The notes below the pieces were generated by a model. That model worked only from the letters and a program-made list of their open reading frames with translations. It made no database searches and had not been told where the DNA came from. A stretch of 64,000 nt of DNA. It comes from Luteibacter sp. Its GTDB lineage: Bacteria > Pseudomonadota > Gammaproteobacteria > Xanthomonadales > Rhodanobacteraceae. Both the position numbers and the translations under genes were made by a program. Below are positions 7,724 through 46,520 of this stretch, piece after piece (position 1 is the first letter of the stretch; every line of letters begins with the position of its first letter). The DNA lies in assembly GCF_009912395.1 (NCBI RefSeq), contig NZ_WNDO01000018.1:47705-111704 (forward strand), given 5' to 3'.

Positions 7724-8023
7724 TCAGCTCGCCGGAGCTGTCCCCGGCGCGGTCGCCTGGTCCCGTTTGGCGTGCGTATGCGTCAATGCCCAGGTGGACG
7801 CCATGCCCACATAGCCGGCGACCGTCAGGCAGGCGACGAAGACGGTGAACAGGGCCAAGCGCTGGGTCGCCTTCAACGGGCGTCGACGGGCCACCCGACC
7901 CACCGCCCAGCCGGCCATCAGTGCGGCCACGGCCAGCAGGGTCGGCAGCAGGCCGACATAGGCGAAATCCCGGGCCGGATCGGTGACCGGCGTATCGACG
8001 AAGGGCCAGGGAAGCGGTGTCAC
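7724..8023 (-). CDS. Small hypothetical membrane protein
   Basis: A 99-aa product with two predicted membrane helices (about residues 21-45 and 55-82), separated by the basic loop GRVARRRPLKATQR. The proposed start is GTG at 8023, without a clear ribosome site. Its 3' end converges with the pilin-like-domain gene 10 bases away, and it is divergent from the ferredoxin gene. The helix-loop-helix pattern argues for a real protein, but nothing shows its role. Confidence 0.5.
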   Translation of the reverse strand: MTPLPWPFVDTPVTDPARDFAYVGLLPTLLAVAALMAGWAVGRVARRRPLKATQRLALFTVFVACLTVAGYVGMASTWALTHTHAKRDQATAPGTAPAS

Positions 8024-8058
8024 GCAGGATTCGTCCGTGGGTGGGGGAGACTGAATAG

Positions 8059-8370
<312 letters not shown>

Positions 8371-34835: not shown

Positions 34836-34963
34836 GTGTCGTCAGCATTGACGCGGCCCGCGCGGTGACTGGTTTTCACACTCTGCCGAATAGGTTTTTG
34901 CGATCGCATGTAAGTGTGAAGCGTGACGTGATTTTACGTCGTCGTGCGGCGGAATTCCGACGT

Positions 34964-34978
34964 TGGCACGCTCCTTGA
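34964..34978 (+). promoter_or_regulatory. Sigma-54 promoter of fleQ
   Basis: TGGCAC-N5-TTGA: perfect -24 and one mismatch in the -12. It lies about 80 bases upstream of the fleQ ATG, implying that the regulator gene itself needs a sigma-54 activator, possibly by autoregulation. Confidence 0.8.
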
Positions 34979-35057
34979 TTGGTACTTGGCATCTGAGGTC
35001 GCAGGGCGGTTCCCGCCCGGTCGACGACCTCGCACCAACGTCCCAAGGGGTAACAAG

Positions 35058-36476
35058 ATGAAGTCCTCCAACTTTCTCGTTGTCGAGTCCGATCGCGCCC
35101 GCACCGATGGCATCATGTCGGTGCTGGCTTTCCTCGGATACCGTCCGGTGCTGGCCAGCCGCCTGCAAGCGGCGGACACGGCGGAGAGTTGGCGTGGCGT
35201 CTTCGTCGGCACCGTGGACGATGAGGCCGAACTCGAAGGCCATGTCGCGGCGCTGGGTCGCAATGGCCGCGACCTGCCGATGCTGGTCGCCGCGGACTCC
35301 CCGCTTGCCACCGCGCTGATCTCCGACGACTCGCGCAGCCAGAGCGTGGAGCTGGTCGACGTACCCCTGCGCTATGAGCGTCTGTCCGAAGCGCTGCGCG
35401 CGCTCCAGTCGCGCATCCAACCGCCGGCTGCCAGCCTGCGCATGGTCGGACATTCCGGTCCGATGCAGCGCGTGAACGGCCTGATCCGCCAGGTCGCCCC
35501 GTTCGATTCCAGCGTGCTGGTGCTCGGCGAGTCCGGCAGCGGCAAGGAGCTGGTCGCCCGTACGATCCACGAATGTTCGCCGCGTCGCGACAAGCCCTTC
35601 GTGGCGATCAACTGCGGCGCGATTCCGGCCGAGCTGCTCGAGAGCGAACTGTTCGGTCACGAGAAGGGTGCCTTCACCGGCGCCATCAGCACCCGCAAGG
35701 GTCGCTTCGAGATGGCTGAGGGCGGCACGCTGTTCCTCGACGAAATCGGTGACATGAGCCTGCCCATGCAGGTGAAGCTGCTGCGCGTGCTCCAGGAGCG
35801 CGTGTTCGAACGCGTGGGCGGCAACCGTCCGCAGCGTTGCGACGTGCGCATCATCGCAGCCACCCATCGCGACCTCGAAGGTGCGATCGAGAGCGGCAGC
35901 TTCCGTGAAGACCTCTACTACCGCCTGTCGGTGTTCCCGCTGGAAATGCCGCCGCTGCGCCAGCGCCTGGAAGACATGCCGGCCCTGATCAGCGAGTTCA
36001 ACCAGCGCCTCGTGCAGCGCGGCCTGTCCTCGGTGCGTTTCTCGCCGGGCGCGATGACCGCGCTGTGCAAGCACGGCTGGCCGGGCAACGTCCGTGAGCT
36101 GTCGAACCTGGTCGAGCGCATGGCCATCCTCCTGCCGCACGGCGAAGTGCGTGCCGCCGACCTGCCGGAGAAGTACCGCGGTGGCCTGCCGATCGAGGAA
36201 GTTTCCGGTGCGGCCCTCATCGCCATGATGGAAGCCGAGCCGGAAGTCACCGAGACCTTCTCGTTCGCGAACGAGGGCGATCCGTCGGTGTTGCCGCAGG
36301 GCGGCCTCGACCTGAAGGATCATCTGGCCGGTATCGAGATTGGCCTGATCCGCCAGGCACTGAATTCCGCCAATGGCGTGGTGGCCCATGCCGCCAAGCT
36401 GCTGCGCGTGCAGCGCACGACGCTCGTGGAAAAGCTGCGCAAGTACGGCCTGTCGGAAACGGCCCAGGCGGGCTGA
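35058..36476 (+). CDS. fleQ: Flagellar sigma-54-dependent master regulator FleQ
   Basis: 472 aa. The N-terminal FleQ domain (about residues 1-120) is receiver-like but has no phosphoacceptor pattern. The AAA+ domain (about 130-370) has Walker A GESGSGKE at 157-164, GAFTGA (sigma-54 contact) at 204-209 and LFLDEIGDM. The C-terminal Fis-type helix-turn-helix contains NGVVAHAAKLLRVQRTTLVE. The ATG at 35058 is preceded by AAGGGG. No FleS/FleR pair or rpoN copy lies beside it, unlike Pseudomonas and Xanthomonas clusters as I recall them. Confidence 0.95.
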   Translation: MKSSNFLVVESDRARTDGIMSVLAFLGYRPVLASRLQAADTAESWRGVFVGTVDDEAELEGHVAALGRNGRDLPMLVAADSPLATALISDDSRSQSVELVDVPLRYERLSEALRALQSRIQPPAASLRMVGHSGPMQRVNGLIRQVAPFDSSVLVLGESGSGKELVARTIHECSPRRDKPFVAINCGAIPAELLESELFGHEKGAFTGAISTRKGRFEMAEGGTLFLDEIGDMSLPMQVKLLRVLQERVFERVGGNRPQRCDVRIIAATHRDLEGAIESGSFREDLYYRLSVFPLEMPPLRQRLEDMPALISEFNQRLVQRGLSSVRFSPGAMTALCKHGWPGNVRELSNLVERMAILLPHGEVRAADLPEKYRGGLPIEEVSGAALIAMMEAEPEVTETFSFANEGDPSVLPQGGLDLKDHLAGIEIGLIRQALNSANGVVAHAAKLLRVQRTTLVEKLRKYGLSETAQAG

Positions 36477-43337: not shown

Positions 43338-43352
43338 TGGCACGCCGCTTGC
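43338..43352 (+). promoter_or_regulatory. Sigma-54 promoter of fliL-fliM
   Basis: TGGCAC-N5-TTGC, perfect consensus, 66 bases before fliL. Confidence 0.92.
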
Positions 43353-43937: not shown

Positions 43938-44954
43938 ATGAGTGACATCCTCACCCAGGAAGAAATCGACGCCCTGCTCGCCGGCGTGGAAGGCGGCTCG
44001 GTCGACACCGAGGCCGAGCTTCCGCCGCCGGGCGGCATCATCGATTACGACTTCACTCAGCAGGATCGCATCGTCCGCGGCCGCCTGCCGACGCTGGAAA
44101 TGGTCAACGACCGCTTCGCCCGCTACTTCCGCACGAACCTGTTCGGCGTGCTGCGCAAGTCTTGCGAGGTGTCGGTGCTTGGCGTGAAGATGACCAAGTT
44201 CAACGAGTACGTGCACTCGCTGGCGGTGCCGAGCAACCTCAATCTCGTGCGCATCAAGCCGTTGCGCGGCACGGCGTTGATGGTGTTCGAGCCGCGCCTG
44301 GTGTTCACCGTCATCGATAATTTCTTCGGTGGCGACGGTCGATACCATGCCCGCATCGAGGGTCGTGACTTCACGCCGACCGAGAACCGCGTCATTCAGA
44401 TCGTGCTCCAGGAAGCCTTCGCCGCGATGTGCGAGGCCTGGGCACCGGTATTGAAGATGCAGTTCGAGTTCCTCAATTCCGAGATCAACCCGCAGTTTGC
44501 GAACATCGTGAGCCCGACCGAGACCGTGGTGGTGTCGCGTTTTCATATCGAACTGGATGGCGGCGGTGGCGAGATCCACCTCACGCTGCCGTATTCCATG
44601 GTCGAGCCCATCCGCGAACTGCTCGACGCGGGCGTGCAGAGCGATCGCGCGGAGCGCGACGAGCGCTGGATCCAGAACCTGCACGAGGAAATTCTCGATG
44701 CGGAAGTGGAAGTCACCTCCCTGCTGGCCGAGGCACGGCTGACCATTGGCGACTTCCTGCACCTGCGCAAGGGCGACGTGATTCCGATCAACCTGCCCGA
44801 CCTGGCGACGGTATTCGCCGAGGACGTGCCGATCTTCCGTGGCCGCATGGCCAACGCCAGCGGCAACAAGGCGGTGCGTTTCGAGTCGCTGCTGCGCCGG
44901 AACGCCCAGCGCCAGGGACCGCTGCCTATCGAGCCGCTGACCGAAACGTTGTGA
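43938..44954 (+). CDS. fliM: Flagellar motor switch protein FliM
   Basis: 338 aa. The N-terminal CheY-binding peptide LTQEEIDALLAG is at residues 4-15. The middle domain has GTALMVFEPRLVFTVIDNFF, and the C-terminal SpoA domain ends in a basic tail. Followed by a perfect REP hairpin and then an antisense gene rather than directly by fliN. Confidence 0.97.
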   Translation: MSDILTQEEIDALLAGVEGGSVDTEAELPPPGGIIDYDFTQQDRIVRGRLPTLEMVNDRFARYFRTNLFGVLRKSCEVSVLGVKMTKFNEYVHSLAVPSNLNLVRIKPLRGTALMVFEPRLVFTVIDNFFGGDGRYHARIEGRDFTPTENRVIQIVLQEAFAAMCEAWAPVLKMQFEFLNSEINPQFANIVSPTETVVVSRFHIELDGGGGEIHLTLPYSMVEPIRELLDAGVQSDRAERDERWIQNLHEEILDAEVEVTSLLAEARLTIGDFLHLRKGDVIPINLPDLATVFAEDVPIFRGRMANASGNKAVRFESLLRRNAQRQGPLPIEPLTETL

Positions 44955-44957
44955 CGC

Positions 44958-44985
44958 GGTAGGAGCGCGCAAGCGCGCTCCTACC
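44958..44985. repeat. REP-like hairpin after fliM
   Basis: GGTAGGAGCGCGC-AA-GCGCGCTCCTACC, a perfect 13-bp stem with a 2-base loop. It lies between the convergent fliM and oxygenase genes and may also end transcription. Confidence 0.9.
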
Positions 44986-44987
44986 GT

Positions 44988-45914
44988 TCAGCGGCGGAAA
45001 CGTACGTAGGCGCGCTTGGCCAAGTAGAGCAGGTTGCCTGCGAGGCCCTTGTCCTGCGCCTTCAGCAGCGAGGTGTTCTCGGCGTAGAGCATCTGTATGT
45101 GACCGTCGCGCTGCGCGATGAGGCTGCGAATGGTCGCCACGTCGGCCGCGCTCAGCGTATGGCCTTCGGCCAGGTGCTCAGGCAACTGGCGCTTCACGTA
45201 ATACGTGGTGTGGCGGTCGGCGATCTCTTCTTCCGGCCGGTCCTTCGTATAGAAGTAAAGTGCGATCGAGCGCCGGCTCAGGTCGGCATGCTGAGCGGGC
45301 AGGGCGATCGTGTCGAACGCATGCCATGAGCGCTCCGAGGTCTCGAAGATCACGCAGCGATTGAACACCGGCGGCACCGATTGGCGCGGAGTCACCTCCT
45401 CGTGCGGATCGCGGAACAGTTCGAGGTTGCCGCCCCAGGCCTGCTCCCACTGCGGATTCAGGTAGATGATCAGGTTCAGGCGACGATGCCAGCGCTCGCT
45501 TGGATGGAAGTTGAAGTCCACATGCGGGTCGAGGCTCATGCCGTTGCGGTTTTCGTGGGTGCCCCCACCGAGGTACCACGGGTCGTAGAGCAGCCCGTCG
45601 ATGCCGGTGAGGCGCCCGATCGCCGCCAGGAACTCCGGGCTCTGGATCGCATCGTCGAGACGTCGATAGGCATCGCCTAGCGAACGCACCTTGTCGAGCG
45701 TCGACTTGCCGCCCTGTCGTCCATCGTCACCCACCGTATTGCCCCGTTCGAAGGCCGGAAATTCGGCCAGGAGCTTGCCGATGAACGACGAGTCCAGAAA
45801 GTCGTCGATGACCACATGGGGGAATGGGTCGGCACCCAGGAAGGCACGTCGATGATCGTCTGCCGCCGCGAGCACCCGCGGGTTGAGAATGGTGATGCCT
45901 GTCTGACCGTCCAT
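44988..45914 (-). CDS. 2-oxoglutarate/Fe(II)-dependent oxygenase inserted in the flagellar cluster
   Basis: 308 aa. The facial triad is H131-x-D133 (DPHVDFNFH) and H198 (SERSWHAF), with a 2-oxoglutarate-binding Arg at 214 or 215 (LSRRSIALYFYTKD). WGGNLELF between them is typical of prolyl-4-hydroxylase-like enzymes. The N-terminal FPHVVIDDFL is another mark of this family. A helical C-terminus of about 80 residues is of unknown use. It is antisense to, and interrupts, the fliLM-fliNOPQR series. Hydroxylation of a protein or small molecule is possible; the substrate is unknown. Confidence 0.87.
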   Translation of the reverse strand: MDGQTGITILNPRVLAAADDHRRAFLGADPFPHVVIDDFLDSSFIGKLLAEFPAFERGNTVGDDGRQGGKSTLDKVRSLGDAYRRLDDAIQSPEFLAAIGRLTGIDGLLYDPWYLGGGTHENRNGMSLDPHVDFNFHPSERWHRRLNLIIYLNPQWEQAWGGNLELFRDPHEEVTPRQSVPPVFNRCVIFETSERSWHAFDTIALPAQHADLSRRSIALYFYTKDRPEEEIADRHTTYYVKRQLPEHLAEGHTLSAADVATIRSLIAQRDGHIQMLYAENTSLLKAQDKGLAGNLLYLAKRAYVRFRR

Positions 45915-46129
45915 GTGTTCCGGAATAAGGTAGGGAGCAAGCCGCTCATTCTATTTCGTGAAGGGGGCGGCGTCCCGTGCTGTCGTCGGGGTGTCGACTG
46001 ACCGTCACCGCGACTAACTGCCGTCGAGCGTCATCTTTCCGGCGGAGCCTTGAAGGCAGGGCGGAACCGTCAAGGGCTCCCACAGCGTGAAATGGCGCCA
46101 TGTCGGGCCTGACGGATGCCCGGCGTCGA

Positions 46130-46144
46130 TGGCACGCCGTTTGC
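46130..46144 (+). promoter_or_regulatory. Sigma-54 promoter of the fliN operon
   Basis: TGGCAC-N5-TTGC, perfect consensus, 41 bases before the fliN start. It compensates for the separation of fliN from the fliL promoter by the antisense oxygenase gene. Confidence 0.92.
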
Positions 46145-46184
46145 TTTCTGGCTGACGTATCCACGCAACGTCACCGGAATGGTC

Positions 46185-46520
46185 ATGAACGAACCCACCC
46201 TCAGCCCCGAAACCCAGGACGGTCCCGAAGCCGAAGCGACGCTCGGCGGCCTTGGCAACGAGGTCAATCTCGACGTCATCCTCGACGTGCCGGTCACCAT
46301 GGCGATGGAAGTGGGTCGCACCAAGATCAGCATCCGCAACCTGCTCCAGCTCAACCAGGGCTCGGTGGTGGAGCTGGATCGCGCGGCGGGCGAACCGCTG
46401 GACGTGTTCGTCAACGGCACGCTCGTCGCCCACGGCGAGGTCGTGGTCATCAACGAGAAGTTCGGTATCCGGCTGACCGACGTGATCAGCCCGGCCGAGC
46501 GCGTCCGCAAGCTGCGGTGA
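46185..46520 (+). CDS. fliN: Flagellar motor switch protein FliN
   Basis: 111 aa. The C-terminal SpoA domain (NLDVILDVPVTMAMEVGRTK, then NLLQLNQGSVVELDRAAGEP) is diagnostic. The ATG at 46185 is chosen, as it lies downstream of the sigma-54 promoter with CCGGA as a weak ribosome site; the ATG at 46179 is an alternative. The open frame extends upstream through the promoter but is not used. Confidence 0.95.
   Translation: MNEPTLSPETQDGPEAEATLGGLGNEVNLDVILDVPVTMAMEVGRTKISIRNLLQLNQGSVVELDRAAGEPLDVFVNGTLVAHGEVVVINEKFGIRLTDVISPAERVRKLR

Follow-up and report, generated by a model that had tools for sequence, protein, structure and literature searches.

A prolyl-hydroxylase-type oxygenase gene between fliM and fliN in a Luteibacter flagellar cluster: a probable passenger at a transcription-unit boundary

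The 64,000-nucleotide stretch of Luteibacter sp. DNA analyzed here, hereafter called the window, carries a flagellar gene cluster in which a predicted 2-oxoglutarate (2OG)/Fe(II) oxygenase gene lies antisense between fliM and fliN. The genes and features relevant to this site are as follows.

34944..36476, + strand: fleQ-like sigma-54 activator gene of the same flagellar cluster (Sigma54_activat 245.8, FleQ 41.4 and HTH_8 40.3 bits)
43938..44954, + strand: fliM, the last gene of the upstream flagellar run (PF02154 FliM, 242.8 bits)
44957..44986, no strand: REP-type hairpin where the 3' ends of fliM and the oxygenase gene converge (sequence, fold, genome copies)
44988..45914, - strand: 2OG/Fe(II) oxygenase gene, 308 amino acids (profile, alignment, model, fold search)
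45948..45953, - strand: -10-like TAGAAT of the predicted own promoter of the oxygenase gene (similar hexamer in 11 of 18 loci)
45993..46033, + strand: conserved element that precedes the fliN box (core TGCCGTC..GCGTCA, present in all 22 Luteibacter regions)
46130..46145, + strand: sigma-54-like -24/-12 box of fliN (22 of 22 Luteibacter regions; window scan)
46185..46520, + strand: fliN, the first gene of the downstream flagellar run (PF01052, 90.6 bits)

The gap between fliM and fliN is 1,230 bp in the window (1,233 bp when the start is taken one codon late). A preliminary description of the sequence had placed an antisense oxygenase with an intact HxD...H...R site in this gap, flanked by a perfect REP hairpin, and both observations are borne out. 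The oxygenase ORF matches PF13640 (2OG-FeII_Oxy_3) with 64.7 bits, against a curated cut-off of 27, and its site residues are invariant among relatives. The hairpin has perfect arms of 14 bases (44957-44970 and 44973-44986; fold z -5.5) and occupies most of the 33 bases that separate the end of fliM from that of the oxygenase ORF. The palindrome pattern GTAGGAGCGCGC-N0-20-GCGCGCTCCTAC is dispersed over the window's genome in 81 copies, versus 0 for the reversed control, so the hairpin is one of many REP copies. It would mark and separate the ends of the converging fliM and oxygenase transcripts.

The gap was measured in 21 Luteibacter genomes, leaving out G004, whose contig stops before fliM. 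In 17 of them it spans 192-525 bp, which leaves no room for such a gene, though the packing is loose. A search with fliN matched 39 genomes and yielded 30 loci, and the comparison of gap and promoter box outside Luteibacter rested on eight loci, each from a different genus of the family; seven of these loci have a short fliM-fliN gap without a sigma-54-like box. The 80% complete genome G007 gave no fliN match and stands outside the comparisons at the fliM-fliN site and at the putA site described below. The earlier statement that fliM and fliN are normally contiguous therefore holds as far as the short gaps are concerned, but the Luteibacter genes are not tightly packed. Open frames of about 450 amino acids hinted at a fliM-fliN fusion in sister genera; this was rejected because the fliM stop precedes fliN (six genomes with such frames, among the eight loci, were checked; G037 was left out). 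Our literature search retrieved no paper on a split at Luteibacter fliN or on this oxygenase, and fliM, fliN and fliL are not mentioned in the accessible part of PMC7280030.

The fliN box reads TGGCACGCCGTTTGCT at 46130-46145, the perfect sigma-54 match noted earlier. A scan of the window for sigma-54-like sequences gave five matches with at most one mismatch, versus 0.42 expected; two of these are exact, one before fliN and one before fliL at 43338. Each of the 22 Luteibacter genomes with a fliN hit, the window's among them, has the box, TGGCAYGC-N3-TTGCW, just upstream of fliN, and each has the element core TGCCGTC..GCGTCA 99-130 bp upstream of the box. The oxygenase gene is found at this site only in the window and in L. 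anthropi; the other 20 genomes lack it there. Since box and element precede fliN in every genome and the oxygenase gene in only two, the operon split does not stem from the insertion, and the proposal that the operon had been re-wired around the inserted gene is contradicted. That the insertion created the fliN promoter was accordingly rejected. The separate promoter-like region before fliN is a trait of Luteibacter, which may have an earlier origin, rather than something that mended the insertion. Outside the genus, the gap of about 97 bp in G032 (L054 and L229) holds a sigma-54-like box immediately behind fliM, possibly an early stage of the split.

The distances between core and box (window 46020-46145 and 21 further Luteibacter regions) fall into classes of 99, 110-111, 120-121 and 130 bp, in steps of about one DNA turn; the chance of four classes being in phase is about 0.03 or less by a hand estimate that takes them as independent. 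Such phasing suggests that an activator must bind on one face of the DNA. The element at 45993..46033 is a putative activator (FleQ-type) binding region: it is kept throughout the genus and a fleQ-like gene lies in the cluster, although it is not a base-for-base match to the Pseudomonas FleQ motif given in the accessible part of PMC8125075.

We measured 14 gene junctions, from fliF to flhA, in 21-23 Luteibacter genome stretches. Only the fliM-fliN junction ever exceeds 700 bp, in 4 of 21 genomes and with three unrelated types of cargo: the gap is 1,233 bp in the window, 1,316 bp in L. anthropi, 1,350 bp in G009 and 8,720 bp in G015. The G009 gap (L207 2111-2616) encodes a 93-residue protein with a double-glycine-like leader and a glycine-rich body, together with an 82-residue membrane-like protein, which by their sequences look like a bacteriocin-type pair. 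In G015 (L209 7990-16718), a 1,481-residue RHS-repeat protein is directly followed by a 104-residue membrane-like ORF. The small proteins of both gaps gave no Pfam match, and their labels are our own reading. The fliM-fliN junction accounts for about 340 of the roughly 605 intergenic bp per cluster (hand sum of positive medians) and is the longest gap, and the chance that three independent events would all fall there is about 0.18 (hand estimate), which is not significant. Given the length of this gap and the small number of events, a hot spot is not proven. We consider it possible, but rather doubtful, that the junction is a docking site at which unrelated cargo was repeatedly set between the fliM end and the phased FleQ-type enhancer, sparing fliN-fliR expression. 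If it were a true hot spot, the boundary would be a handy place to find accessory genes in Luteibacter.

In the oxygenase, H131-x-D133, H198 and R214-x-S216 are invariant both in a 22-row and in a 50-row alignment of relatives; R144 and Y151 are invariant in the 50-row alignment, and Y151 is nearly so in the 22-row one. The AlphaFold2 model (mean pLDDT 87.2, pTM 0.83) consists of one catalytic domain followed by two C-terminal helices (256-306). Foldseek against the PDB placed Tpa1 (E 1.1e-12) and OGFOD1 first, followed by PasI, PolD, a Phytophthora prolyl 4-hydroxylase and PHD2; the matches are moderate, with TM-scores by query length of 0.40-0.54 and identities of 16-20% in the rows shown. 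A sequence search of solved structures also ranked OGFOD1 first. The resemblance to prolyl-hydroxylase-like proteins noted earlier is therefore supported by fold (Tpa1/OGFOD1) and by sequence (OGFOD1). The protein scores 33.7 bits against YhhC (NF041706) and 18.5 bits against FlmC (NF052475), below the NCBIfam cut-offs of 150 and 240, respectively.

According to the accessible part of PMC4396695, OGFOD1 holds its metal by His155, Asp157 and His218 and 2OG by Arg230 (RXS) and Tyr169, the groove for the substrate is lined by Arg162, and an arginine common to prolyl hydroxylases sits where the active site opens and binds the substrate proline by its backbone; the same text describes the Tpa1/OGFOD1 family as confined to eukaryotes. 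In a sequence alignment with a 20-residue numbering offset, His218, Arg230, Tyr169 and Arg162 of OGFOD1 map to H198, R214, Y151 and R144. His155 and Asp157 map to H131 and D133 when one six-residue insertion is assumed; the HMMER alignment sets the HxD motif six residues off. Arg162 and the invariant R144 align in a gap-free block, and from the residues described there we infer that Arg162 is the opening arginine. Because the metal, 2OG and groove residues of OGFOD1 map onto invariant residues, prolyl-hydroxylase-type chemistry is predicted for the oxygenase. However, the protein lacks the tandem domains that mark the Tpa1/OGFOD1 family, and two small-molecule enzymes come almost as near to it in fold; with fold matches that are moderate and small-molecule enzymes among the solved relatives, a peptidyl-proline substrate is not secured. 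The ORFs beside the oxygenase gene, judged by eye for a small peptide that might be tailored, were unconvincing. The best viral fold match of the model (E 1.5e-20) is a mimivirus protein of 616 residues labeled GDP-mannose 4,6-dehydratase; it may contain an oxygenase domain of similar kind and is a lead towards sugar substrates.

The closest relative, L. anthropi CCUG 25036 (G017), has the same insertion between fliM and fliN, with a protein that is 80% identical. Six other Luteibacter genomes (G001, G002, G004, G016, G019 and G022) carry a copy between putA and a peptidase M3 gene, with further genes intervening between these two in G016; the names putA and peptidase M3 come from Pfam for L063 and from similarity for the other loci. 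The putA site is without an oxygenase match in 15 of 22 genomes examined, those of the window and of L. anthropi among them; of the 22 Luteibacter genomes that gave a fliN hit, 14 lack a full copy (E below 1e-100) at any site. The gene is patchy at the putA site, where G011 retains a decayed remnant (L080 ~7924-8316). In L. anthropi (G017 C21 29457-31662), the peptidase M3 gene reads as two overlapping pieces.

A quick tree of 42 oxygenase copies, with SH-aLRT as the one support value and one long outgroup branch (L125), groups the window protein with two L. anthropi proteins, one from CCUG 25036 and one of unverified site (98). These three rows fall within a branch of 23 rows (97) that also contains Dyella, Rhodanobacter, Frateuria, Luteimonas and Stenotrophomonas. 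All six putA-site copies make up a separate branch (97). Holding the nine Luteibacter rows together costs 72.8 log units (AU test run after the tree had been seen, p-AU 5.9e-7), and the candidate origin of the fliM-fliN copy as a moved putA-site copy was rejected by tree and test. A tree built from putA makes the window's genome the sister of L. anthropi (support 99). As the putA-site copies differ in branch and in site, the fliM-fliN copy likely came from elsewhere. Judged from these sequences, a single entry into the ancestor of the window strain and L. anthropi would explain the data best, an old duplication followed by many losses being costlier. Foreign base composition was also considered and dismissed: the GC content of the gene, 0.633, falls inside the 0.625-0.685 of the measured neighbors, and hence there is no compositional sign of recent arrival. 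The gene is intact at this site in two species and hence is not cargo in decay; like the composition, this counts against the passenger explanation set out below.

Upstream of the match start, a -10-like hexamer lies at 32-39 bp in 11 of 18 loci of the same tree branch (L081-L098; counted with no shuffled control). A scan of the region with the sigma-70 consensus found no promoter, and the pattern used for sigma-54-like boxes found none reading towards the oxygenase gene. The similar placement of the hexamer in these loci makes it likely that the oxygenase gene brought its own promoter.

We then considered whether relatives of the oxygenase are tied to flagella. The best 80 of 223 loci were kept and up to 6 kb on each side inspected. 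Flagellar genes occur within 6 kb in one of these 80 loci, that of L. anthropi, which is the same insertion; near the L094 oxygenase there is only a 30% match to a CheV-like protein. A conserved flagellar linkage of the family was therefore rejected. Neighbors elsewhere include genes for glutamyl/glutaminyl-tRNA synthetase, a Clp ATPase, peptidases M1, M3 and M13, an amino-acid permease and an acyltransferase, as well as mscS, recG, secD, spoT, putA, a glycosyltransferase with an O-antigen ligase (L073) and, in a more distant branch, ptsI. They were picked with a rough ORF caller, about 30-40 proteins being scanned, some two or more genes away, and no neighbor recurs across genera within the window's branch among the loci scanned. 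In four separate contexts (L082, L063, L107 and L086) with peptidases M1, M3 and M13, amino-acid permease, putA and cyclophilin, the neighbors may share a proline or peptide theme, or this may be chance. A gene family of the ptsI type is present in 29 of the best 80 loci (among L121-L160, e.g. L122 4160-6924), and in the examples viewed it lies directly upstream of the more distant oxygenase relative, in a run with HPr kinase and rapZ; this linkage of oxygenase relatives to the phosphotransferase system is stable.

Carriers of the oxygenase are not confined to flagellated genomes: an FlhA match (1e-40) is present in 30 of 43 chosen carriers and absent in 13. The 43 comprise 21 of 34 oxygenase-matching genomes and 23 of the best 80 loci, minus L087. 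Because many of the 21 were picked for an absent fliN hit, so that the choice is not random, the 13 show that carriers without FlhA exist and not how frequent they are. Twelve of the 13 hold more distant oxygenase copies; only the genome of L089, Rhodanobacter glycinis, which has a 70% identical copy, belongs to the window's tree branch. The window's own genome also encodes a second pair of FliN-like (38%) and FlhA-like (44%) proteins (G000 C18 ~68051-82444), which likely belong to a type III secretion system.

These results bear on what the gene does at this site. The preliminary description had offered modification of a flagellar protein as one hypothesis and a passenger gene as the alternative, and the evidence favors the latter: the fliN box stands in 20 Luteibacter genomes without the oxygenase gene there, and flagellar linkage is absent elsewhere. 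Hydroxylation of a flagellar protein (flagellin, hook, rod or switch) as the reason why the gene stays in the cluster would fit the prolyl-hydroxylase-like fold of the enzyme, the intact gene inside the flagellar cluster of two species and the occurrence of FlhA in most chosen carriers, including all but one of the same-branch genomes checked. Against this stand the flagellar neighbors in a single one of the best 80 loci, again the same insertion, the carriers without an FlhA match, R. glycinis among them, and the many Luteibacter genomes with fliN and no full copy, and we regard a flagellar substrate as very improbable. Still less credible is the view that the insertion split an intact fliL-fliR operon and that the fliN promoter arose, or came with the insert, as a repair. 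The perfect box before fliN and the short gap without a box in most other genera would agree with it, but the genus-wide presence of box and element, mostly without the gene, contradicts it, and one other genus (G032) has a box within a short gap already.

A passenger could still be under flagellar control if fliN and the oxygenase gene, which diverge, were both regulated by the FleQ-type element that separates them. Some 80 bp part this element from the start codon of the oxygenase gene downstream of it, the gene is divergent to the fliN enhancer, and a fleQ-like gene is at hand in the cluster; set against the lack of a sigma-54-like box towards the oxygenase gene with the pattern used, and the similarly placed -10-like hexamer in most same-branch loci, this arrangement seems improbable. 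A more serious competitor, though we think it rather less than even, is a passenger that oxidizes a small molecule (nucleoside, sugar, lipid or free amino acid) instead of a protein residue. PasI and PolD are among the nearest folds, and the neighbors elsewhere include the amino-acid permease, putA and acyltransferase genes and, in L073, the glycosyltransferase and O-antigen ligase. Weighing the other way are the first rank of Tpa1/OGFOD1 by fold and of OGFOD1 by sequence, the groove arginine of OGFOD1, which aligns with invariant R144, and the lack of a neighbor recurring across genera of the branch in the loci scanned. The oxygenase gene being a passenger is likely because the fliN promoter-like sequence is the same in 22 Luteibacter genomes, of which 20 are without the gene there. 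Overall, we hold with good confidence that it is a passenger at the fliM-fliN boundary, encoding a stand-alone 2OG/Fe(II) oxygenase of predicted prolyl-hydroxylase type with a non-flagellar role.

According to this passenger explanation, the gene would derive from a Dyella/Rhodanobacter/Luteimonas-like branch, would have entered the ancestor shared by the window strain and L. anthropi and would have landed between the 3' end of fliM and the fliN enhancer. With the landing point upstream of that enhancer, fliN-fliR would still fire from their own FleQ/sigma-54 promoter, and the oxygenase gene would be read leftwards from its own sigma-70-type promoter. In the predicted enzyme, H131, D133 and H198 would hold Fe(II), R214/S216 and Y151 would hold 2OG, and R144, at the mouth of the pocket, would grip the backbone of a peptide. 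The reaction would consume O2 and 2OG and hydroxylate an amino-acid residue, probably proline, in a protein or peptide outside the flagellum; of all these steps, the substrate is the least secure.

The finding is thus real and of an ordinary sort, a probable passenger gene where two transcription units meet, with flagellar modification unlikely and re-wiring contradicted. It corrects an attractive but misleading reading, as location within a flagellar cluster does not by itself give a gene a flagellar function. Two points remain of value, the genus-wide enhancer/promoter-like region of fliN and the possible cargo hot spot. In Luteibacter, a sigma-54-like control region that is separate and conserved precedes fliN and the export genes, at a boundary that tolerates foreign genes.

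Among known systems, the uS12 prolyl 3-hydroxylases Tpa1 and OGFOD1 are the best fold matches and OGFOD1 the best sequence match, with the same metal and 2OG residues by alignment; they have two DSBH domains, whereas the 308-residue window oxygenase has one plus the two C-terminal helices, at 16-20% identity. Prolyl hydroxylases of the PHD/EGLN and P4H types have a similar catalytic fold (PHD2 E ~1e-9 to 1e-8), also at 16-20% identity. The small-molecule oxygenases PasI, solved with an octosyl-acid-type ligand going by its entry title, and PolD, an enzyme of the polyoxin pathway, are bacterial and similar in catalytic-domain size (fold E ~1e-9); in contrast to both, the window oxygenase has flagellar and not biosynthetic genes beside it. 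The putA-site oxygenases of Luteibacter are 63-67% identical to it over nearly the full length but differ from the fliM-fliN copy in genomic site and tree branch. Finally, the FleQ/sigma-54 flagellar operons of polar flagellates share with Luteibacter the sigma-54-like box, a conserved upstream element and a fleQ-like gene, although the Luteibacter element departs from the Pseudomonas FleQ motif, GTCaNTAAAtTGAC in the accessible part of PMC8125075.
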